From assembly GCF_001485475.2 (NCBI RefSeq), contig NZ_DF977001.1, forward strand, positions 186,001-250,000: a DNA stretch of 64,000 nucleotides, in the 5' to 3' direction. Shown here piece after piece: positions 12,892 through 24,713 of the stretch (its first letter is position 1; each line of letters starts with the position of its first letter). Both the position numbers and the translations under genes were made by a program. The stretch comes from Tepidanaerobacter syntrophicus. Lineage in GTDB: Bacteria; Bacillota; Thermosediminibacteria; Thermosediminibacterales; Tepidanaerobacteraceae. The notes beneath the pieces are model-generated. The model searched no databases. It was given only the letters and a program-made list of their open reading frames with translations, and was not told the origin of the DNA.

Positions 12892-13287
12892 CTACATTAT
12901 CTTCTTCATACCTCGTGTATCTTCGGCAGCTTTTTTAACTTCTTCAAGACTTTTCCCGAAGCTTGCTTCCATAGCTGCCGACATAGCTCCTTCTACAAAA
13001 GGAGCGTCTGCCATGCAAACCTTCTTTCTTACATCTTCTCTTAAATCTTCAATGGCCATCTCGGCGCTCATTACCGCACTACCAAGATCCGGTATAACTA
13101 ATACTCCGTCTCCATCAAAGACTTCGATGATTTTCTCTTCGATTAAGAATGCATCAGTGCCCAGTCTGCCGTCTGAGGTTCCTGCAGCCTCTTCAATCTT
13201 TATTTTCTCTCTTACAACCTGCTCTATGAGCTCTTTAGCTCCTTGTGCCAACTTTTTGCTATGTGAGACAAGTACAATTCCAACCAA
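12892..13287 (-). CDS. dhaM: PTS-dependent dihydroxyacetone kinase, phosphotransferase subunit DhaM
   Basis: The 131 residues form an EIIA-Man-like domain. VLVSHSKKLAQG holds the phosphorylated histidine (residue 9), and IPDLGSAVMSAEMAIE follows. It receives phosphate from HPr and passes it to ADP bound on DhaL. Unlike E. coli DhaM, which also carries HPr and EI-like domains, this is the short Gram-positive form. The start is TTG with a GAGGTG ribosome binding site, 9 bases after dhaL. It is the last gene of dhaK-dhaL-dhaM and is followed by a terminator. Confidence 0.93.
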   Translation of the reverse strand: MVGIVLVSHSKKLAQGAKELIEQVVREKIKIEEAAGTSDGRLGTDAFLIEEKIIEVFDGDGVLVIPDLGSAVMSAEMAIEDLREDVRKKVCMADAPFVEGAMSAAMEASFGKSLEEVKKAAEDTRGMKKIM

Positions 13288-13296
13288 TGTAACACC

Positions 13297-13929
13297 TCAT
13301 TTTTGCATATTTTCCAGTGCATCGTATATAGCTTTAAGCATAATATAGCAGGATGTAGCTCCCGGGTCTTGATGACCGATGCTTCTTTCCCCAAGATAAC
13401 TTGCCCTTCCTTTTTTTGCGATAATGCCTTTCGTATATTCTACACCATCTTTTGCCGCATCTACAGCTTTTTTTAAAAGATTAAGGTCTGCAGGCGAAGA
13501 ACTTTTTAAGACTTTGACAGCAGGTTCTAAAGAATCTATTATGGTTTTTTCGCCTTTTTGGGCCTTTCCTCGCATTTTAATGCCTTCAAGGGCGGCGTCC
13601 AATATAGTAGGCAAATCCTCAAATGTGATCTTATCTTTTGTCCCGGTTGCCTGAGATGCCCTCATAAATGCCGTCCCGTATAAAGGACCTGATGCACCTC
13701 CTACTGTGGATACCAAAGTCATTCCAACCGTTTTTAAGATAGTGCCGCAGTCCTTATCTTCCATCGATGAAATTTTTTCGCTGACCGCTTTAAAGCCCTT
13801 TGCCATATTTATGCCGTGATCGGCATCGCCAATTGCCGCATCAAGCTCTGTTAAAAAATCCTTATTTTCCTCAATATACTGTGCCATATGATTTATTATT
13901 TTTATAAGTTGTGCACTGTCAACTGCCAT
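13297..13929 (-). CDS. dhaL: Dihydroxyacetone kinase, ADP-binding subunit DhaL
   Basis: The protein is 210 residues from the ATG at 13929. Helical DhaL fold: ELDAAIGDADHGINMAKG carries the Asp cluster that binds the Mg ions of the tightly held ADP, VGGASGPLYGTAFM is the nucleotide loop, and GERSIGHQDPGATS is at the C-terminus. It transfers phosphate from DhaM to dihydroxyacetone bound on DhaK. The reading frame is open 63 bases further upstream, but that part would overlap the end of dhaK. The ATG at 13929 has an AGGAAG site and matches the family's N-terminus. Confidence 0.92.
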   Translation of the reverse strand: MAVDSAQLIKIINHMAQYIEENKDFLTELDAAIGDADHGINMAKGFKAVSEKISSMEDKDCGTILKTVGMTLVSTVGGASGPLYGTAFMRASQATGTKDKITFEDLPTILDAALEGIKMRGKAQKGEKTIIDSLEPAVKVLKSSSPADLNLLKKAVDAAKDGVEYTKGIIAKKGRASYLGERSIGHQDPGATSCYIMLKAIYDALENMQK

Positions 13930-13954
13930 TATGTTCTCTTCCTTTCTCGCCAAA

Positions 13955-14953
13955 TCAAAGCTGTCTAAAAGCAGGTGTATCTGCAGATGCATCTAGCAGA
14001 GTTTTTAGCTCCTCATCTAATTTTAAAAGAGTAATAGATGCTCCCGCCATCTCAAGTGAAGTCATAAATTCACCGATAAACGTCTTATAGACCTTAATTT
14101 TCTTTTCCTTTAAAACCTCGCTTACTCTTCGGTTCATTATAAATTGTTCCATTAATGGTGTTGCGCCAAGGCCGTTTACCATCACGGCTACTTCATCGCC
14201 TGCTTCATAAGGCAAATCCTTTGTTATCTTATCAAGTAAGTGATCCACGATTTCATCTGCCTTCATGATAGAAGTCCTCATTGTCCCCGGTTCTCCGTGA
14301 ATGCCTATGCCTATTTCCATTTCATCTTCGCCCAAGGTAAAGTTGGGTTTGCCCGCAGCAGGGACAGTGCAGGGCGTAAGAGCAAATCCCATGCTCCGCA
14401 CATTATTAATAACTTTTTCTGCTGTATTTTTTACTTCTACCAAAGTCCCGCCTGCTTCTGCCTTTGCTCCTGCAATCTTATGCACAAAAACCGTTCCCGC
14501 AATGCCGCGTCTTCCGGTGGTATAAAGGCTGTCTTCAACAGCAACGTCATCATTTACAACTACTTTTTCAATATTTACTCCGTCGCCCTCAGCCATTTCC
14601 GCCGCCATTTCAAAGTTCATTATATCACCAGTGTAGTTCTTTATTATCAGCAGAACCCCAGCTCCCCCGTCCACTGCTTTTATTGCTTCATATATCTGAT
14701 CAGGGGTTGGCGATGTAAAAACAGCTCCTGCTACTGCCGCATCCAACATGCCCTTACCTACAAAGCCTGCATGAGAAGGCTCATGGCCGCTGCCTCCTCC
14801 TGATACTAACGCAACCTTTCCTTTTACCGGCGCATTAGTTCTTATCATAACATCAAAACCATCAAGCTTCCTTACATACTGAGGATAAGCTGCGGCCATA
14901 CCTTCCAGCATTTCCTCAACTACATTTTCAGGATTATTTATGACCTTTTTCAT
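13955..14953 (-). CDS. dhaK: Dihydroxyacetone kinase, substrate-binding subunit DhaK
   Basis: The 332 residues match DhaK. GGGSGHEPSHAGFVG is the substrate pocket, followed by FTSPTPDQIYEAI, KNYTGDIMNFEMA, and GIGIHGEPG with the histidine (about residue 216) that covalently binds dihydroxyacetone as a hemiaminal. It makes dihydroxyacetone phosphate with DhaL and DhaM. It starts 125 bases after the chemoreceptor gene ends. A TATAAT lies ~45 bases upstream but with only a weak -35, so the genes may also be read from the glycerol operon. Confidence 0.93.
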   Translation of the reverse strand: MKKVINNPENVVEEMLEGMAAAYPQYVRKLDGFDVMIRTNAPVKGKVALVSGGGSGHEPSHAGFVGKGMLDAAVAGAVFTSPTPDQIYEAIKAVDGGAGVLLIIKNYTGDIMNFEMAAEMAEGDGVNIEKVVVNDDVAVEDSLYTTGRRGIAGTVFVHKIAGAKAEAGGTLVEVKNTAEKVINNVRSMGFALTPCTVPAAGKPNFTLGEDEMEIGIGIHGEPGTMRTSIMKADEIVDHLLDKITKDLPYEAGDEVAVMVNGLGATPLMEQFIMNRRVSEVLKEKKIKVYKTFIGEFMTSLEMAGASITLLKLDEELKTLLDASADTPAFRQL

Positions 14954-15078
14954 TAAATCATCGCCTCCTAAAAGCTGTTTAGTTTTATTATACTATATTC
15001 ATGGCAGTTTACATAGGTAAAAAGGATTTGTTTAAACATCGCGCGAGATATACTTTACTATTTTTAATTAAATATTTG

Positions 15079-16812
15079 TCAGTTTGCATCTTTTGCGACT
15101 TCCCGGACTATATCATAGTTTTTGTCATCAGCAATGACGAATCCGTTAATTACTGAACTCCCCTTCTTGTTGTCTCTGTAATTGATAAAAGCTTTTTTGA
15201 GTTTATCCAAAATCTCTTGATCCATATTTGCTCGGGCGGCTATGCAGTCTTTGGGAATCGGGTCGGTTTTTGCCAAATATACAAGTTTTGTTATATCTAA
15301 ACCTTGACGTTTTGCTTCTTCTATAGCTTCAGAATAAGTAGCTCCTACTTTAACCGAGCCTGAAAGCACTGCTTCAACAACGTTGCTGTGGGTTCCAAGA
15401 AATAATTGCTCTTCTAAATCTCTATCAGGATCTATTCCTGCTTTTTTCAGCAGCATGCGAGGATAAGCATAGCCCGAAGCTGATTTTGGATCTACAAAAG
15501 CCATTCGCTGGCCTTTTATATCTGCCAGATTTTTTATTCCGGAATCAACAGTTGTAATAATATAACCTAGGTAACTCGGCGAACCGTTTACTATAGGCGT
15601 TACAAGCGGAACAATAGGACCTTTGCTTTTTGCATTTACATAAGCGAGCGGCGAAAACCATCCTACATCAATAATGCCATCAATCAAACTATTTGACAGT
15701 GCATCATAATCAGTAGCAACTAAAACATGTGGAATCAGGTTTATATTCTTACACACCATATTAATAACCGGCAGGTACAGCGATTTTATAACTTCCGGAC
15801 TCAGCGCAGGATTTATTCCAAAAATTATTTCGTTTTCTTTTTTAAGGTTAACAGACTCTTTTTGTAATAAGTAAACTTTTTGCACCAACCTTTGAGCTAT
15901 TTCTAAAAGCTCCTGATTGCATTTTTCCTGGTCTCTTATTAAAAATGCTGCTTTTGTCGTAGAATCTGCAGTTTCTGCAGTTTTTTCATAAAGAGCGGCA
16001 AAGATACCAGCCAGGTATTCCGAAACTTTTGCCTGATCTTGTGAAGACTCGAATAATTCGGTATTAAGTTTAGAAATGTCCTCAAATACCCCGACTGCTT
16101 CCCCCATAATCTTTTTGCCAACCTGCATTTTAGCATTTGCATCTTGAAGTCTTTCCGCTCCGTCTCTTGATATTCTGCATGCTTGAATTATGCCTTCATT
16201 AATAAGATCTGCGGTCTCATGTATTTCTTGAGATTTTATTCTACTTTGTTCTGCAAGCTTTCTAATTTCATTTGCAACAACACCAAAACCCCTACCGGCG
16301 TCTCCTGCTCTAGCAGCTTCTATAGCTGCGTTTAATGCCAGCAAATTAGTTTGTTTTGCTATATGAGTTGTAAAGCCTACAAAATCCCTTACTTTTTCTG
16401 TAAGTTCTACAATACCTTCAATTTCGCGGGCAGATTGGTCTATTTGAAAAGTAACATCTGCTAAAACTCTCTCTGCTTCAGCTATAGAAGTATTCCCTTC
16501 TTCTACTTTTTTTAAATAGTCTTTAGAAATTCGGGAAACTGTCAAAGCTGTTTCATTTAACTTAGATGCCAATAAAGATAAACCTCTTAGTTCTTCTGAG
16601 CCGCTAGCTGCATTTGCGCTTATTTCCTGTGAATGGCAAGAAATATCCTCAACCAGTTTAACTAAGCTTTTTACTGTGTCAGAGTTCTTTGCAACTACCC
16701 ATTTTATTTCATGGGCGTCGTAGCCCACTTCTTCACTTAAATGAAGCATTTCGCTTTGATCAGTTGAATAGTTTTGAATATCATTTCCTTTAAATGATTT
16801 TAAGTTTGGCAT
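15079..16812 (-). CDS. Soluble chemoreceptor signalling domain fused to PhnD-like binding domain
   Basis: A 577-residue protein with two parts. Residues ~60-320 form a methyl-accepting chemotaxis coiled coil with the CheA/CheW-contacting tip [16 protein letters not shown] and [18 protein letters not shown] (about 155-190). Residues ~328-577 resemble the periplasmic phosphonate/phosphate-ester binding family (PhnD-type): [57 protein letters not shown] and GAT(Y)SEAI. There is no signal peptide or membrane helix, so the binding domain should be cytoplasmic. It lies 18 bases after the sigma-54 activator gene in the glycerol block. A plausible ligand is a phosphorylated metabolite such as glycerol 3-phosphate, but that is inference. 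ATG with AAAGGAG. Confidence 0.82.
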
Positions 16813-16830: not shown

Positions 16831-18189
16831 TTACTCTATTATGCCATACCTTCTAGCTTTTGCCGCTACAGTTTTATGAGTAATGCCTAAGGCTTTTCCT
16901 GCAGCATTGAAGCTTTTATATTTGTTTAGTGCGACTTTAATTATTGCCTTTTCGTAATCATCGTAACTTGCCAGCTCACCGTCCGGCTCAAGATTAATTA
17001 GTGGTCGTTTTGTCTCGCTTGTCCTGTTAGTTATGCCTTGCGGTAAATCCGAAATATCAATTACGTCTGTTTCCGCAAGGTTGATAGCGCGCTCAATTAT
17101 ATTCTCAAGTTCTCTTACATTTCCTGGCCAATCATAATTATATAAAGATTCAACAGCTCTTTTTGTTATTGATTTACTTTTCACTCCCAATTTTATGCAC
17201 AATTTCCTAAGAAAATGCTCAACAAGCAGTGGAATATCTTCTTTTCTTTCTCTTAAACTAGGAAGCACTATAGGCACTACATTTAAGCGGTAGTATAAAT
17301 CCTCACGAAAATCCCCAAAACTTACCATTTCTTGTAAATTTCTATGTGTTGCAGCTATTATTCTTACATCTGTTTTTAAAACGCGATTGCCTCCAACTCT
17401 TTCAAATTCACGTTCCTGTAAAACCCTCAGAAGTTTTGACTGTAAATTTTTATCAAGTTCCCCTATTTCATCTAAAAATATAGTGCCGCCATTTGCCAGT
17501 TCGAATTTTCCAATCTTTTGATATATAGCTCCGGTAAAAGCACCTTTTTCGTGGCCAAAAAGCTCACTCTCCATCAGATCGGCTGGAATTCCGGGACAAT
17601 TTACTTTTATAAACGGACCATCGCATCTTTTACTTGCGCAGTGTATCGCCTCTGCTACAAGCTCTTTTCCTGTCCCGCTTTCTCCTTGCAATAGAACTGT
17701 AGAAGAAGTTTTAGCCGCCTTTGCGGCAACTTTTAAAGCCGAAAGTAACCTTTTGCTGCTGCCAATAATATTCTTAAAGGCTCCATCAGCAATCTCGAAA
17801 TCACTATCCCTGTCTAAGTCTTTAGAGCGCAGACGAGGCATTGCCTCTGTTTGGAGGAAATGCCTGTTGAAGACCACTGAATACCCTAAAATTTCACTTT
17901 CGTCTGAAATGGGATTAACTTCAGCTGATATAATTTTACTTTCATCAAAACTTTTATTTTCTCTGACTCGAATTCTGGTAAATGAGCCATTTCCTAGAGT
18001 TACATCGGGAATTACGTCTTGCAGCGGGCTGCCCTCTATTAATTCCTTTTTAAACCCGATTAATTCTTCTGCTACCTTATTGCACAGGGCAATAGTTCCC
18101 TCCTGATCTGTTATAATGATACCTAAGGGCAAGCTGTCAAAAACTTTTTCATTTGTAATTTCTACAAATGATTTACCGTTTTGGCACAC
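16831..18189 (-). CDS. Sigma-54-dependent activator (PAS, AAA+, Fis-type HTH)
   Basis: A 452-residue enhancer-binding protein. A PAS domain (about residues 10-110, [17 protein letters not shown]) is the likely sensor. The AAA+ domain has Walker A GESGTGKE (169-176), the sigma-54-contacting GAFTGA (216-221), Walker B IFLDEIGE (237-244) and arginine-finger region segments [17 protein letters not shown] Fis-type helix-turn-helix sits at the end ([18 protein letters not shown]). All parts needed for open-complex formation with RpoN are intact. The start is GTG with GAGGTG. It is co-oriented with the glycerol genes, whose first gene has a sigma-54 promoter and paired dyads, its probable target. 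Confidence 0.92.
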
Positions 18190-18211: not shown

Positions 18212-18583
18212 TTACTTTTTTTCGGCATTGCCTGTTGCTACTATATCGATTCCAGTACCTACAACATTGCTTACAACGACATCGCCGATTTTAACAGGCG
18301 GAGACACTGTAACATCTTTCAGCTCTACCATGGCTCTTTTTAACAGCTTTTTAGGAATGGGTTCTTTCGTCTTGACAGGCAGCATCCTGCCATCTGCTAA
18401 TTTTAGTGTGGTGGTAAGCGTTCTTCTAGGATCTAAAACTTCATTTTTTGCATACTCTATACCGCGTTTACATCCATAATTTTTTATACTCTCAATATTG
18501 CCGTCTACTAGTTTCACATCTATTTGGCACCCTTTTGGGCAAATAATGCATGTTACCGTTTTATCGACTTCAACTGATTGCAT
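18212..18583 (-). CDS. DUF1667 small redox-type protein
   Basis: A 123-residue DUF1667 protein. CIICPKGCQI near the N-terminus and GCKRG give a conserved cysteine set suited to a metal or iron-sulfur site. Members are typically the third gene after two flavoproteins annotated as glycerol-3-phosphate dehydrogenase-like, as here. The gene starts three bases after the FAD oxidoreductase ends, so it is probably part of the same electron-transfer complex. ATG with GAGGTG. Its precise role is unknown. Confidence 0.85.
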   Translation of the reverse strand: MQSVEVDKTVTCIICPKGCQIDVKLVDGNIESIKNYGCKRGIEYAKNEVLDPRRTLTTTLKLADGRMLPVKTKEPIPKKLLKRAMVELKDVTVSPPVKIGDVVVSNVVGTGIDIVATGNAEKK

Positions 18584-18586
18584 TAT

Positions 18587-19849
18587 CTACACCTCTTCTC
18601 GAAGAGAAAATTTTAATGTTTTAATGTCTTTACCGGCAAGCTCACTCTTTTTAATCTCAATATTTATCATCTCACTGGGTTTTATATGTTGTAACACTCT
18701 TGCACGAATCAATTCATTATCGGATTCTATAAACAGCCGCGCTTTTTCCATTGGTCTTGTGCTGCGCATAAAAAAGTTTTGTTTTTCACTTAGAATTTTT
18801 TCAGGATTTACAAGCTGTGGCACTACATATCTTATGTCGTCACCGGCTAAAATTGAAATATAGTTTTTATCGGGAATCTTGTCTTTTAAATAGTTTGTAG
18901 CTCCCATGCCTGCAAGCCTTGATTCCATCGTAACAAAATCAACTAAATCGTGAACATGAACCACATTGCCGCATGCAAAAATTCCAGGTATAGAAGTTTC
19001 CATTCTTTGGTTTACCACAGGTCCGCCTGTAACATTGTCAATTTTGATATCAGCCATTTTAGAAAGCTCGTTTTCAGGTATAAGGCCTACGGACAAAAGC
19101 AGTGTGTCGCAGCTTACAAATTTTTCGGTAGACGGGATAGGATTCATATTCTCATCTACTTCTGCAATAGTCACACCTTCGATCCTATCTCTTCCATGAA
19201 TATATGTGACTGTATGGCTTAGGAGCAAAGGAATATCAAAATCATTTAGGCATTGAACGATATTTCTTGTAAGTCCGTTTGAATACGGCATAATTTCTGC
19301 TACACACTTTACTTTTGCTCCTTCTAGCGTAAATCGCCTTGCCATAATAAGCCCTATATCGCCGGAGCCTAAAATAACAACTTCTTTTCCTGGCATATAA
19401 CCTTCAATATTTACAAAACGTTGGGCTGTTCCTGCTGTAAAGATTCCTGCAGGCCGGTATCCCGGAATGTTTATGGCACCTCTTGTCCTTTCTCTGCATC
19501 CCATAGTCAGAATCACTGCATCAGCCCTGATTTGAAGCAGTCCTTTTTTGGGGCTTACCGCAGTTATTGTTTTGTCAGCTCCAAGTTCTATAACCATTGT
19601 ATCGAGCAGGGTTTCAATACCCATTGTTTTAAGTTCTTCAATAAATCTATCAGCATATTCAGGCCCTGTAAGTTCTTCATTAAATACATGGAGTCCAAAA
19701 CCATTGTGAATGCATTGCTGCAGTATTCCTCCAAGCCCTGAATCTCTTTCTATAAGTAAGATATCCTCTGCTCCGCTCTTTTTAGCTTCTATTGCAGCAG
19801 CAAGACCTGCAGGGCCGCCACCGATTACTACAAGTTGCTTATTTAGCAT
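18587..19849 (-). CDS. NAD(P)/FAD-dependent oxidoreductase of the glycerol-3-phosphate dehydrogenase cluster
   Basis: A pyridine-nucleotide-disulfide-type flavoprotein of ~420 residues. The FAD-binding motif VVIGGGPAGLAAAIEA is at the N-terminus, HNGFGLHVF follows, the second dinucleotide fold is VVILGSGDIGLIMARR, and FACGNVVHVHDLVD contains the FAD-contacting Asp. It probably carries electrons from the GlpA-like protein to an acceptor. The reading frame opens with a GTG at 19858, but an ATG three codons later (19849) is better placed behind AAGGCGGTGA. It overlaps the upstream gene by 11 bases. No disulfide CxxxxC redox pair was seen beside the FAD motif. Confidence 0.85.
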   Translation of the reverse strand: MLNKQLVVIGGGPAGLAAAIEAKKSGAEDILLIERDSGLGGILQQCIHNGFGLHVFNEELTGPEYADRFIEELKTMGIETLLDTMVIELGADKTITAVSPKKGLLQIRADAVILTMGCRERTRGAINIPGYRPAGIFTAGTAQRFVNIEGYMPGKEVVILGSGDIGLIMARRFTLEGAKVKCVAEIMPYSNGLTRNIVQCLNDFDIPLLLSHTVTYIHGRDRIEGVTIAEVDENMNPIPSTEKFVSCDTLLLSVGLIPENELSKMADIKIDNVTGGPVVNQRMETSIPGIFACGNVVHVHDLVDFVTMESRLAGMGATNYLKDKIPDKNYISILAGDDIRYVVPQLVNPEKILSEKQNFFMRSTRPMEKARLFIESDNELIRARVLQHIKPSEMINIEIKKSELAGKDIKTLKFSLREEV

Positions 19850-21311
19850 TTTGGTCACCGCCTTCGTCCTTCAAGAATTCCTTTATTCGGCCAATAAGAA
19901 TATTGGACCCGGGACCTTTTTTTGTAACTTCTAAGGGATCTATACCAAGTTCTCGGGTAATTATTTCTACTACTCTAGGCGAGCAAAAACCTCCCTGGCA
20001 TCTTCCCATGCCTGCTCTAGTCCTTCTTTTTACTGCATCAATGCTTTGCGCTCCTATAGGTCTTTTTATTGCATCAATTATTTCTGCTTCGGTAACGGTT
20101 TCGCATCGACAGATTACATGTCCAAAGGCCGGATTTTCTTCAATAAGCTTTTTTCGTTCTTCGTTATCCATTTCTCTGAACCTGAATTTTTTGGGCCTAT
20201 GCGGTATAAAATCCCTTTTTTCTTTTAGCTTAAGGCCTATATCTTGTAAAATGTCTTTTACTTCAAGAGCTATCGCAGGTGCTGATGTAAGCCCCGGTGA
20301 TTGTATACCGCCAACATTGATAAATCCATTAACTTTTTTCGATGCTTCGATTATAAAATCGTTAGTATTAGAAACTGCCCTTAATCCTGCAAAAGATGTT
20401 ATGACATTTCTCATAGGTAAATTTGGGATAAGCTTTTTTCCGCCTGCTACAATTTCTTTTATGCCGTCAGAGTTTACACTTGTATCATATTTATCTCCTA
20501 TATCATGGGAATTTGGTCCTATAAAGATATTACCATCAACCGTAGGGCAAACTAAGATGCCTTTTGATATTTTAGTTGGTGTAGGAAATACGGCCTTTTT
20601 TACTAAACCTCCAAACTGTTTATCGAAAATTAAATACTCGCCTTTGCGAGGAGTTATTGTATATTCTTCGGCTCCTGCCATTTTCGATATTTCATCAGCA
20701 AAAAGTCCCGCGGCATTTACTATATATTTTGTTTCTATATTTCCTTTTGGAGTTTTTATTAAAAAGTGATGATTACCCAATACTTCTATGTCTGTTACAG
20801 GAGAATTGAGCCAAAATTTTACACCATTCTGGCTGGCATTTTCAGCTAGTGCAATAGTAAGCTCATAAGGACAAACAATACCTCCTGTCGGGGCATCAAG
20901 AGCGGCTTTTGCCTCGGGATTCAAATTTGGTTCAAGTGTTAAAAGTTCATCTTTGCCTATTATTCTAAGGGGATTTACTCCATTAATTTTCCCTCTTTCT
21001 AAAAGTTCGCAAAGCACTTGAACTTCTTCATCATTTACGGCAACTACCAATGATCCGTTCATTTTAAACGGTACATCCAGCTCTTTGCATAACTCAGGAT
21101 ATAGCCTATTTCCTATTACATTAAATTTTGCCTTTAGGGTGCCCGGCTCAGCATCGAATCCTGCATGGACTACTGCACTGTTTGCTTTACTTGTGCCGCA
21201 GGCTACATCTTCTTCTTTTTCAACTAATGTAATATCAATATCGTAACGAGCAAGCTCTCGCGCAATAGCACATCCCGTCACTCCTGCTCCGATAATTACT
21301 ATATCTTCCAT
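19839..21311 (-). CDS. glpA: GlpA-type FAD-dependent glycerol-3-phosphate dehydrogenase
   Basis: About 490 residues. The N-terminal FAD motif IVIIGAGVTGCAIARELA and the GTSKANSAVVHAGFDAEPGT loop mark the GlpA/L-2-hydroxyglutarate oxidase group. The C-terminus adds a BFD-like [2Fe-2S] domain with CRCETVTEAEI and GMGRCQGGFC. This is the anaerobic type of glycerol-3-phosphate oxidation to dihydroxyacetone phosphate. I start at the ATG at 21311, which follows AAGGAGG; the frame is open ten codons further, but those lie in the glpK terminator. The gene follows glpK, with a terminator-like hairpin between them. Confidence 0.82.
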   Translation of the reverse strand: MEDIVIIGAGVTGCAIARELARYDIDITLVEKEEDVACGTSKANSAVVHAGFDAEPGTLKAKFNVIGNRLYPELCKELDVPFKMNGSLVVAVNDEEVQVLCELLERGKINGVNPLRIIGKDELLTLEPNLNPEAKAALDAPTGGIVCPYELTIALAENASQNGVKFWLNSPVTDIEVLGNHHFLIKTPKGNIETKYIVNAAGLFADEISKMAGAEEYTITPRKGEYLIFDKQFGGLVKKAVFPTPTKISKGILVCPTVDGNIFIGPNSHDIGDKYDTSVNSDGIKEIVAGGKKLIPNLPMRNVITSFAGLRAVSNTNDFIIEASKKVNGFINVGGIQSPGLTSAPAIALEVKDILQDIGLKLKEKRDFIPHRPKKFRFREMDNEERKKLIEENPAFGHVICRCETVTEAEIIDAIKRPIGAQSIDAVKRRTRAGMGRCQGGFCSPRVVEIITRELGIDPLEVTKKGPGSNILIGRIKEFLKDEGGDQNAK

Positions 21312-21331
21312 TTTTTTCCTCCTTAAAAATG

Positions 21332-21361
21332 AAAAAACCACACCTATAGAAAGGTGTGGTT
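21332..21361 (-). terminator. Terminator or attenuator between glpK and glpA
   Basis: On the minus strand AACCACACCT pairs perfectly with AGGTGTGGTT over a 6-base loop and runs directly into TTTTTT. It lies only 20 bases before the glpA start, in mid-operon. GlpP of Bacillus works by antitermination in the glpD leader, and a glpP gene is upstream here, so partial or GlpP-controlled termination is the natural reading. Confidence 0.8.
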
Positions 21362-21419
21362 CTCCATATTCTCCACCACAGCTAAAATCAAATTTAAATT
21401 CTATTCTATTATATTTTCA

Positions 21420-22925
<1,506 letters not shown>

Positions 22926-23027: not shown

Positions 23028-23366
23028 CTAGACATACAAGCAATAAAGAATAAATCCTCCTAAAATTCCTCCTATAATCGCATTTAAAACCATACTTAGT
23101 CCTTTTCCAACGTCATCGCCTGATAAAGCTGAAGCCACAAACAAGCCTGTCCCTGCTGCCCACGCCATATCAATCCATGCCCCACCTGATTGATAAATCA
23201 AGCCTACTCCATGATTAAGAGTCCATGTTGTACCAACTATAAATCCCGCGGCAAGCCAACCACCAATAGGACCAAAGTTTTCAACCAACTTTCCCCAGAC
23301 CAATCTAATTAAGAACGGAAATATAAAACCGCCAGCTATTGTAGCAATAATTTTAGGAAATGCCAT
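23028..23366 (-). CDS. Small membrane protein, candidate glycerol transporter subunit
   Basis: A 112-residue protein with about four hydrophobic helices: the IIATIAGGFIFPFLI region, GGWLAAGFIVGTTWTLNH, DMAWAAGTGLFVA and IIGGILGGFILYC. It shares helix patterns and the W-G-(K/A)-x-V-E, GGW and (T/F)LNH features with its 121-residue neighbour, so the two are paralogues and probably form a heteromeric complex. This looks like the family NCBI names after Listeria Lin0368, putative glycerol transporter subunits; I recall that name rather than having searched. No GlpF is in the window, so this pair may be the glycerol entry route. Clean AAAGGAGG ribosome binding site. Confidence 0.7.
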   Translation of the reverse strand: MAFPKIIATIAGGFIFPFLIRLVWGKLVENFGPIGGWLAAGFIVGTTWTLNHGVGLIYQSGGAWIDMAWAAGTGLFVASALSGDDVGKGLSMVLNAIIGGILGGFILYCLYV

Positions 23367-23424: not shown

Positions 23425-23781
23425 CTAAGCTTTATTTTTTTCCGCCCACATTTTTTCAATAGCAACTGCCATGCTCCCTCCAATTATTCCTCCGATAATT
23501 ACGCACGCAAGGGTAGGCAGCGATTCAATCCCTGCTTGTGTTCCTTTAAGAAACACGTCTCTCATTGTTCCTGTGATTCCTATTCCTAGAGCCATGTCAA
23601 CCGCGGCACCTTCATTTGCTATAAGGCCAATATAGTGATTTAAAAACCACATTACTGAAATAATTATAAACCCTGAAAACCACCCTCCGCCAATTCCATA
23701 TGTTTCCACAAAAGCTCCCCAGACTGACATTACGAAAATACCTGCAATTGCGTAACCTAAAATTGAACCTATCTTTTTCAT
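23425..23781 (-). CDS. Small membrane protein, partner subunit of candidate glycerol transporter
   Basis: 118 residues from the ATG at 23781, which has AAAGGGTG six bases ahead; GTG and ATG codons just upstream are worse placed. It has four likely membrane helices: ILGYAIAGIFVMSVWG, GGWFSGFIIISVMWFLNH, VDMALGIGITG and LACVIIGGIIGGSMAVAI. The C-terminus is charged. WGAFVETYG and WFLNHYIGLI correspond to WGKLVENFG and WTLNHGVGLI in the next gene. It lies between a large hairpin after glpP and its paralogue, followed by glpK. Confidence 0.7.
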   Translation of the reverse strand: MKKIGSILGYAIAGIFVMSVWGAFVETYGIGGGWFSGFIIISVMWFLNHYIGLIANEGAAVDMALGIGITGTMRDVFLKGTQAGIESLPTLACVIIGGIIGGSMAVAIEKMWAEKNKA

Positions 23782-23877
23782 TAACATCACCCTTTCTGGT
23801 TTTTATTGGACTTGTTGTAGTAAATTTTATAAAAATGACTTATAAGTAGCTGTTTAATCACCTCCTTATAAACTAAA

Positions 23878-23940
23878 AAGTCCTTCCTAGCTTAGTAATT
23901 AGTACAAAGGTACTGTAATTACTAACCTAGGAAGGACTTT
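23878..23940 (-). terminator. Long near-perfect hairpin between glpP and the transporter pair
   Basis: AAAGTCCTTCCTAG is mirrored by CTAGGAAGGACTTT, and the inner TTAGTAATTA/TAATTACTAA also pairs, giving a stem of about 25-29 pairs with a small loop. On the minus strand it is followed by TTTTTAG. It separates glpP from the genes it should control, so it may be the regulated terminator of this operon. Ribosome-site-like AAGGAGGTGA follows 9 bases later without a clear start codon. Confidence 0.8.
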
Positions 23941-23958
23941 CTCCTATTCTCCAAGTCC

Positions 23959-24534
23959 TTAAAAGGTATAGTCCCAGATATCTTCTTTTGTAACCGATAT
24001 AGCCCAGGCCCCCTCTTTAATAGCAGCTTCAACTTCAGCTGTATTTTCAATCAGTCCTCCAGCTATAACAGGATGTCTTACGGTTCGGCATATCCTTCCG
24101 ATAACTTTAGGTATTACAGCAGGGAGAATTTCTACGGCATCAGGGTTTACGCTTTTAACTGTTTTTTCAGCAGTATCAAGAGCAAGACTATCTAGAACAA
24201 ATATTCGTTGAATAGTAAACAATCCTTCGTTTTTAGCGTAATTTATAAGGTTCGCTCGCGTTGTTATAATTCCGTCCGGCTTTATCTCTTGAGCAATATA
24301 TTTTATTCCCATACTATCTTTGCTGATACCTTCGAGAAGATCTAAATGTAGAAAGACGGTTTTGTTACTTTCTTTTACTCGATCTACGATCTTCTTAATG
24401 TTTAATATATTACCAGTTAGAAGGAATATGCACTTAGGTTTTTTTGATAAAGCTATATTGACTCTTTCGATATCTCTTATGGCCGGTATTACCGGAAAAC
24501 TCTTTAGGTCTTGAATTATCTTTTGATCAGTCAA
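23959..24534 (-). CDS. glpP: Glycerol uptake operon antiterminator GlpP
   Basis: The 191 residues match the GlpP family: FPVIPAIRDIERVNIAL, IFLLTGNILNI, VFLHLDLLEGISKD, DGIITTRANLI, TIQRIFVLDSLAL, VEILPAVIPKVI, and the glycerol-3-phosphate-binding-like PVIAGGLIENTAEVE. In Bacillus GlpP bound to glycerol 3-phosphate prevents termination in leader transcripts and stabilises mRNA. Here it is the first gene of the block, unusually behind a sigma-54 promoter. The start is TTG with AGAGGTGG. It is followed by a very stable hairpin before the transporter genes. Confidence 0.92.
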   Translation of the reverse strand: MTDQKIIQDLKSFPVIPAIRDIERVNIALSKKPKCIFLLTGNILNIKKIVDRVKESNKTVFLHLDLLEGISKDSMGIKYIAQEIKPDGIITTRANLINYAKNEGLFTIQRIFVLDSLALDTAEKTVKSVNPDAVEILPAVIPKVIGRICRTVRHPVIAGGLIENTAEVEAAIKEGAWAISVTKEDIWDYTF

Positions 24535-24606
24535 ATAACCACCTCTGCTTTTTAAGTTTTTTTGAATATTATTTATAGATTATTGAAATTTCCTTATTTA
24601 TATTAT

Positions 24607-24622
24607 TGCAAAAAATATGCCA
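24607..24622 (-). promoter_or_regulatory. Sigma-54 (-24/-12) promoter of glpP
   Basis: On the minus strand TGGCATATTTTTTGCA fits the RpoN consensus TGGCAY-N5-TTGCW exactly, with GG and GC ten bases apart as required. It lies 73 bases before the glpP TTG start. The same operon carries a sigma-54 activator gene, and two dyads lie at activator distance upstream. Confidence 0.82.
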
Positions 24623-24661
24623 ATCATATTTGCTTATGTTTCTTGAGTTTAAGTACTTTTA

Positions 24662-24713
24662 TGTTGGTAAAAAATATCAACTCAACAATATCTCTTGATA
24701 CTTTTTACCAACA
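24662..24713. promoter_or_regulatory. Paired dyads, probable enhancer sites of the sigma-54 activator
   Basis: TTGGTAAAAAATATCAA (24664-24680) and TTGATACTTTTTACCAA (24695-24711) each read TTGRTA-N5-TAYCAA, and together they form a 19-base inverted repeat. Their centres are 31 bases apart, about three helical turns, so two activator dimers could bind one face. They lie roughly 57 and 88 bases upstream of the sigma-54 promoter centre. As RNA the whole could also be a plsY 3' hairpin, but no T-run follows on the minus strand. Confidence 0.65.

Follow-up and report, generated by a model that had tools for sequence, protein, structure and literature searches.

Predicted sigma-54 control through paired dyads, layered over GlpP antitermination, in a glycerol operon of Tepidanaerobacter syntrophicus and its relatives

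Introduction

Which form of RNA polymerase reads the glycerol operon of Tepidanaerobacter syntrophicus, and which signals decide how far it travels? We studied this question in a window of 64,000 nucleotides (positions 186,001 to 250,000 of contig NZ_DF977001.1, assembly GCF_001485475.2), and all coordinates below count from its first letter. A sequence-only reading of the window had proposed that sigma-54 drives the operon, that two phased dyads upstream of glpP, the gene for the glycerol-3-phosphate responsive antiterminator, act as the enhancer above a layer of GlpP antitermination, and that an intact activator encoded in the same gene run feeds back on its own operon, an arrangement that it did not know to be described.

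Gene organization and the glpP promoter

On the minus strand, the order is plsY, the promoter, glpP, two DUF6905 genes, glpK, glpO, the genes for an FAD oxidoreductase and a DUF1667 protein, the activator gene, a gene for an MCP-PhnD fusion, dhaK, dhaL, and dhaM (Table 1), and this order recurs, with small differences, in 16 related genomes from three families. The place of glpF is taken by two small DUF6905 membrane proteins, the first of which (protein A) is a putative glycerol transporter subunit; relatives that have no close copies at this place include G005, G007, and G011. Families f1 and f3 keep the MCP-PhnD fusion gene in the operon and f2 lacks it; the fusion protein is possibly a chemoreceptor for a phosphate compound of the glycerol pathway.

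Table 1. Features of the glycerol and dihydroxyacetone gene run, with positions in the window
Feature	Position	Strand	Description
Distal dyad TTGATACTTTTTACCAA	24695-24711	.	Centre 82 bp from the -24 GG; putative activator site
Promoter-proximal dyad TTGGTAAAAAATATCAA	24664-24680	.	Centre 51 bp from the -24 GG; putative activator site
Sigma-54 -24/-12 promoter TGGCATATTTTTTGCA	24607-24622	minus	0 mismatches to TGGCAY-N5-TTGCW
glpP, glycerol-3-phosphate responsive antiterminator	23959-24534	minus	PF04309, 223 bits; TTG start, Shine-Dalgarno AGAGGTGG
GlpP element 1, antiterminator hairpin AAGGACTT-[GGAGAATAGGAGA]-AAGTCCTT	23932-23960	minus	Same loop and covarying stem in relatives
Intrinsic terminator 1	23873-23941	minus	RNA fold of -38.1 kcal/mol and T-run
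DUF6905 membrane protein A	23425-23790	minus	PF21846; glpF position
DUF6905 membrane protein B	23028-23366	minus	PF21846
glpK, glycerol kinase	21420-22919	minus	FGGY_N and FGGY_C
GlpP element 2, GTGGT-[GGAGAATATGGAGA]-ACCAC	21356-21379	minus	Before glpO
Intrinsic terminator 2	21332-21365	minus	Before glpO
glpO/glpA-like glycerol-3-phosphate dehydrogenase or oxidase	19839-21341	minus	DAO and BFD-like [2Fe-2S] domain
Pyridine nucleotide-disulphide (FAD) oxidoreductase	18587-19858	minus	Domain match
DUF1667 protein	18212-18583	minus	Domain match
Sigma-54 activator	16831-18189	minus	PAS, AAA+ with GAFTGA, Fis-type HTH; HPr lost
MCP signalling domain fused to C-terminal PhnD-like binding domain	15079-16812	minus	PF12974 (PhnD-like domain); domain match
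dhaK upstream region	14954-15078	minus	Dyad and sigma-54 core absent here, present in relatives
dhaK, dhaL, dhaM, PTS-type dihydroxyacetone kinase	12892-14953	minus	Single-domain DhaM

The promoter candidate TGGCATATTTTTTGCA reads TGGCAT-N5-TTGCA with the correct GG-N10-GC spacing, and transcription of glpP would be expected to start near 24596. Upstream of it, TTGGTAAAAAATATCAA and TTGATACTTTTTACCAA both match TTGRTA-N5-TAYCAA perfectly and stand 31 bp apart, which confirms the earlier description of this region in sequence, coordinates, and spacing. At sigma-54 promoters, activator sites lie upstream within about 50-250 bp and on one face of the helix, and the glpP promoter combines a GG-N10-GC core with upstream sites placed on one helical face. 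The genome encodes rpoN elsewhere. No good match to a sigma-70 promoter was found between plsY and glpP on the minus strand, and searching the promoter and the glpP leader against Rfam returned chance hits only.

Under a first-order Markov model, perfect dyads and perfect promoters are expected about 0.3 and 3 times per Mb, respectively, and under the same model the glpP cluster, defined as two perfect dyads within 60 bp together with a perfect -24/-12 element within 100 bp, has a chance expectation of about 4e-9 per genome. Across the 2.43 Mb of the genome, the dyad pattern was matched five times, twice before glpP; the other three, each without a sigma-54 core inside 1.5 kb, were judged to be chance occurrences. 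A second perfect TGGCAT-N5-TTGCA was seen at 2417-2432 on the plus strand, between genes that are all on the opposite strand, and is probably a chance match with no obvious target.

Conservation, helical phasing, and the candidate activator

We ran the dyad search before orthologous glpP genes across relatives. A sigma-54 core was present at 17 of 17 glpP genes linked to the activator gene (T. syntrophicus counted), which represent fewer independent observations than the number suggests as the genomes share ancestry, and the cores start 72-119 bp before the aligned coding region. Two dyads with at most two mismatches were found in 16 of these 17 promoters; the remaining one, that of G011, needs three mismatches for one dyad. 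For four draft genomes (G004, G006, G008, and G009), the linkage of glpP to the activator spans a contig break and was deduced from split genes. Of the 18 glpP genes without such linkage, among them second copies from these same genomes, none has the core or paired dyads. The nineteenth gene of the non-linked set, from G024, has a sigma-54 core and one weak dyad. It may or may not be linked to an activator: the gene is found close to the end of its contig, next to plsY as the linked genes are, and G024 also has a long open frame of its own that includes an HPr domain. Comparison of the linked genes (17/17) with the other set (1/19, the one being G024) gave a Fisher p of 4e-9, uncorrected for relatedness. 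When eight promoters from the family were aligned, the blocks of conservation coincided with the two dyads, the -24/-12 element, and the Shine-Dalgarno sequence. A class-wide search, covering the 26 genomes of the class in our set, added nothing to the search of relatives, and a contig scan using the activator mostly recovered generic AAA+ activators of about 50% identity and was uninformative. Conservation and co-occurrence with the activator gene strongly support the proposal of sigma-54 control with two phased dyads as the enhancer.

The spacing of the dyads was informative as well. Among relatives, the distance from dyad centre to the -24 GG falls into five classes (approximately 40, 51, 72, 82, and 92 bp) that fit a 10.5-bp period (R = 0.988, p = 4e-4 against five random class centres), and between lineages the distance from dyad to promoter shifts only by whole turns of DNA. 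The spacing between the two dyads is 31 bp in T. syntrophicus, 41-42 bp in the rest of the family, and 32 bp in sister families; relative to its sister species, T. syntrophicus has a dyad spacing that differs by roughly one turn of the helix. Because whole-turn changes fit a protein bound to one face of the DNA, a need that an RNA hairpin does not have, the variants of 31, 32, 41, and 42 bp amount to a natural helical-phasing experiment and speak against a rival reading, in which the two dyads are the arms of a single RNA hairpin, a processing or termination signal at the 3' end of plsY, and the -24/-12 match is fortuitous. As that reading would have it, one dyad is an almost perfect inverted copy of the other, and the pair directly follows plsY in all relatives, but no T-run comes after it and each dyad is also symmetric in itself. 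Moreover, in ten relatives this motif stands before dhaK as one dyad with a sigma-54 core and no partner arm, and in genome G054 three TTGGTA-N5-TACCAA-type dyads and a sigma-54 core lie between the gene for an HPr-type activator and ptsI (L159 4382-4582). On these grounds the hairpin was rejected as highly improbable.

If the dyads are protein sites, as we prefer, the question becomes which protein reads them. The genome encodes about 19 AAA+ activator domains, and the promoter could depend on sigma-54 and yet be driven by another of these activators, the one in the operon serving a different target. However, none of the genome's other activators has a similar HTH (the best reached 50% over 38 residues), the glpP dyads occur only where the in-operon activator is linked, and in other genomes the dyad is found with this activator at dhaK and ptsI as well, so that control by another activator appears improbable. 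Because the same dyads stand at dhaK in ten relatives and at ptsI in G054 and no comparable HTH is encoded elsewhere in the genome, the in-operon activator is likely the reader of the glpP dyads. This pairing is drawn from linkage, with independent support from G054, whose activator is a distant homologue (49% identical) in a genome with no glpP match. In another distant relative, G046, a sigma-54 core precedes dhaK (L158 3164-3180) with no recognisable dyad of the glpP motif, and nearby glpP genes have no sigma-54 cores; the activator of this genome may read a different site.

The T. syntrophicus activator has the features of a bacterial enhancer-binding protein, namely, an AAA+ domain (PF00158, 238.8 bits) with a GAFTGA motif visible in the alignment and a Fis-type HTH (HTH_50), and scored 248 bits with the DhaR model NF008485, below the curated cut-off of 551. 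Its description as intact held for the PAS, AAA+, and HTH parts but not for the N-terminus, where an HPr domain present in 18 of 18 aligned relatives (PF00381, 61-63 bits in the two tested) is gone. The start and Shine-Dalgarno sequence were kept, and the HPr domain and linker were deleted in frame; the only HPr gene of the genome is the general one. In the relatives' activators, the active-site His of this domain is conserved, and close relatives have a residue other than Ser at the position that aligns with Ser-46 of the HPr encoded in T. syntrophicus. At dhaK, other members of the genus have kept the dyad together with a GG-N10-GC core that has drifted, and T. syntrophicus has neither. We infer that the loss of the HPr domain and that of the dhaK sigma-54 promoter are linked, and the joint loss of a sensor and a second promoter offers a natural example of circuit rewiring.

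Candidate GlpP-dependent RNA switches

The proposed GlpP layer is supported by two conserved elements in which an antiterminator overlaps a terminator. Terminator 1 is located after glpP, and its 5' arm doubles as the 3' arm of element 1; both recur in the 15 relatives examined, and element 1 matched no Rfam family. Counterparts of element 2 were found before glpO in eight relatives (G005, G007, G011, G015, G018, G019, G021, and G022). The loop has the form GGAGA-N3/4-GGAGA, and in an alignment of 29 elements neither GGAGA motif varies, while the stem pairs change on both sides between the two element classes. Judged by where it lies, how well it is conserved, and how GlpP is known to act in B. 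subtilis (PMC9604022), the GGAGA loop is the probable binding site of GlpP, and the GGAGA-N3-GGAGA hairpin can be put forward as a testable GlpP recognition element. The locus thus holds the parts of a GlpP system: the GlpP protein and, before target genes, terminators with mutually exclusive antiterminators. Elements of this type are also found in G014 and G046, where glpP is not under sigma-54 control, which indicates that the two regulatory layers are separable. At least 16 related genomes have in common the predicted sigma-54 promoter, the paired dyads, and the two candidate GlpP switches.

Proposed regulatory circuit

Taking these results together, we regard as very probable an account in which a glp promoter read by RpoN and activated by a DhaQ-like protein is followed by two GlpP switches. 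RpoN-RNA polymerase would read the first promoter of the glycerol/dihydroxyacetone operon, and the activator, encoded seven genes downstream, would bind both dyads, which are of the TTGGTA-N5-TACCAA type, from the same side of the helix and, through contact of its GAFTGA loop with sigma-54, open the promoter; its signal would most likely be related to dihydroxyacetone or to the PTS. The transcript would then meet terminator 1 behind glpP and terminator 2 ahead of glpO. An antiterminator hairpin overlaps each of them, and GlpP bound to glycerol-3-phosphate would stabilise these hairpins and let RNA polymerase pass both. Because the two layers would act in series, full expression of the operon would amount to an AND gate of activator and glycerol-3-phosphate. 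With its gene placed beyond both terminators of this gene run, the activator would amplify its own synthesis. Such autoregulation is plausible from the gene order, and internal promoters may free the activator gene from the glpP promoter. The circuit would unite in one catabolic operon enhancer-dependent sigma-54 initiation and protein-directed antitermination, which are usually studied apart.

Where in this series glycerol is sensed can be read in another way. Induction could proceed mainly via GlpP antitermination, with the sigma-54 promoter general and weakly regulated and the activator of this genome perhaps constitutively active without its HPr domain. That this genome has lost the HPr domain as well as the second sigma-54 promoter, next to two intact GlpP elements, would fit such a division, whereas the PAS domain has been kept and the dyads and promoter are clearly constrained in relatives. 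We consider this rather unlikely; it also has a sigma-54 promoter and differs from the account above only in the site of regulation, so that the confidences placed in the two overlap.

Returning to the account with a regulated promoter, the conserved His of the relatives' HPr domain, its lack of a Ser-46 equivalent, and the second sigma-54 promoter at dhaKLM together suggest that the activator probably reads phosphorylation by the PTS or DhaM. A more detailed and tentative version of this idea, to which we give somewhat less than an even chance, is that the HPr domain of the relatives' activator accepts phosphate in an EI-HPr-DhaM chain and reads the flux of dihydroxyacetone while GlpP reads glycerol-3-phosphate, which would make a two-metabolite AND gate; T. 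syntrophicus would be a variant from which the phosphorelay input and the dhaK sigma-54 promoter were deleted, rewired towards control by glycerol-3-phosphate alone. With these losses, the PAS domain and glycerol-3-phosphate would remain as the inputs of T. syntrophicus. If the phosphorelay reading is true, the flux of dihydroxyacetone is coupled to the glycerol operon through one switch at the DNA level and two at the RNA level.

Comparison with known systems

GlpP of B. subtilis acts on glpD, glpFK, and glpT (PMC9604022) and shares with the present system a protein of the GlpP family and terminators before glycerol genes. Its targets, however, have a -35/-10 promoter and a terminator in the 5' UTR, whereas T. 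syntrophicus has a predicted sigma-54 promoter ahead of glpP itself and switches placed between cistrons. DhaR of E. coli is likewise an AAA+/Fis activator encoded beside dihydroxyacetone kinase genes, but it has no GAFTGA motif and works with sigma-70 (PMC3162934), unlike the T. syntrophicus activator with its intact GAFTGA.

The closest likeness is to DhaQ, a sigma-54 activator of dhaKLM and ptsI that was predicted computationally in Clostridiales (Nie et al. 2019, PMC6615313). That paper lists PTS-HPr among the activator sensor domains and gives the consensus TTGGCAT-N5-TTGCT; its main text names no glycerol genes or glycerol itself, and the targets listed for DhaQ are dhaKLM and ptsI only. 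The in-operon activator resembles DhaQ as a sigma-54 activator tied to dhaKLM and ptsI, a likeness of description rather than of compared motifs, and its regulon here would extend to the glp operon. In T. syntrophicus, by contrast with DhaQ as described there, the activator has no HPr domain and the dhaK promoter has neither sigma-54 core nor dyad. Dihydroxyacetone kinase has also been listed as sigma-54-regulated in Clostridia (PMC12316311). Among open-licence papers, we found none that joins GlpP, antiterminator, and sigma54, which is weak evidence of absence, and a paper on the Desulfovibrio sigma-54 regulome has no glycerol entry. The earlier claim of novelty has to be narrowed accordingly: sigma-54 control of dhaKLM had already been predicted (PMC6615313; PMC12316311), and what we did not find in print is its extension to a GlpP-controlled glycerol operon. 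The system is best seen as the extension of a DhaQ-type regulon, placed on top of GlpP antitermination, rather than as a wholly new mechanism.
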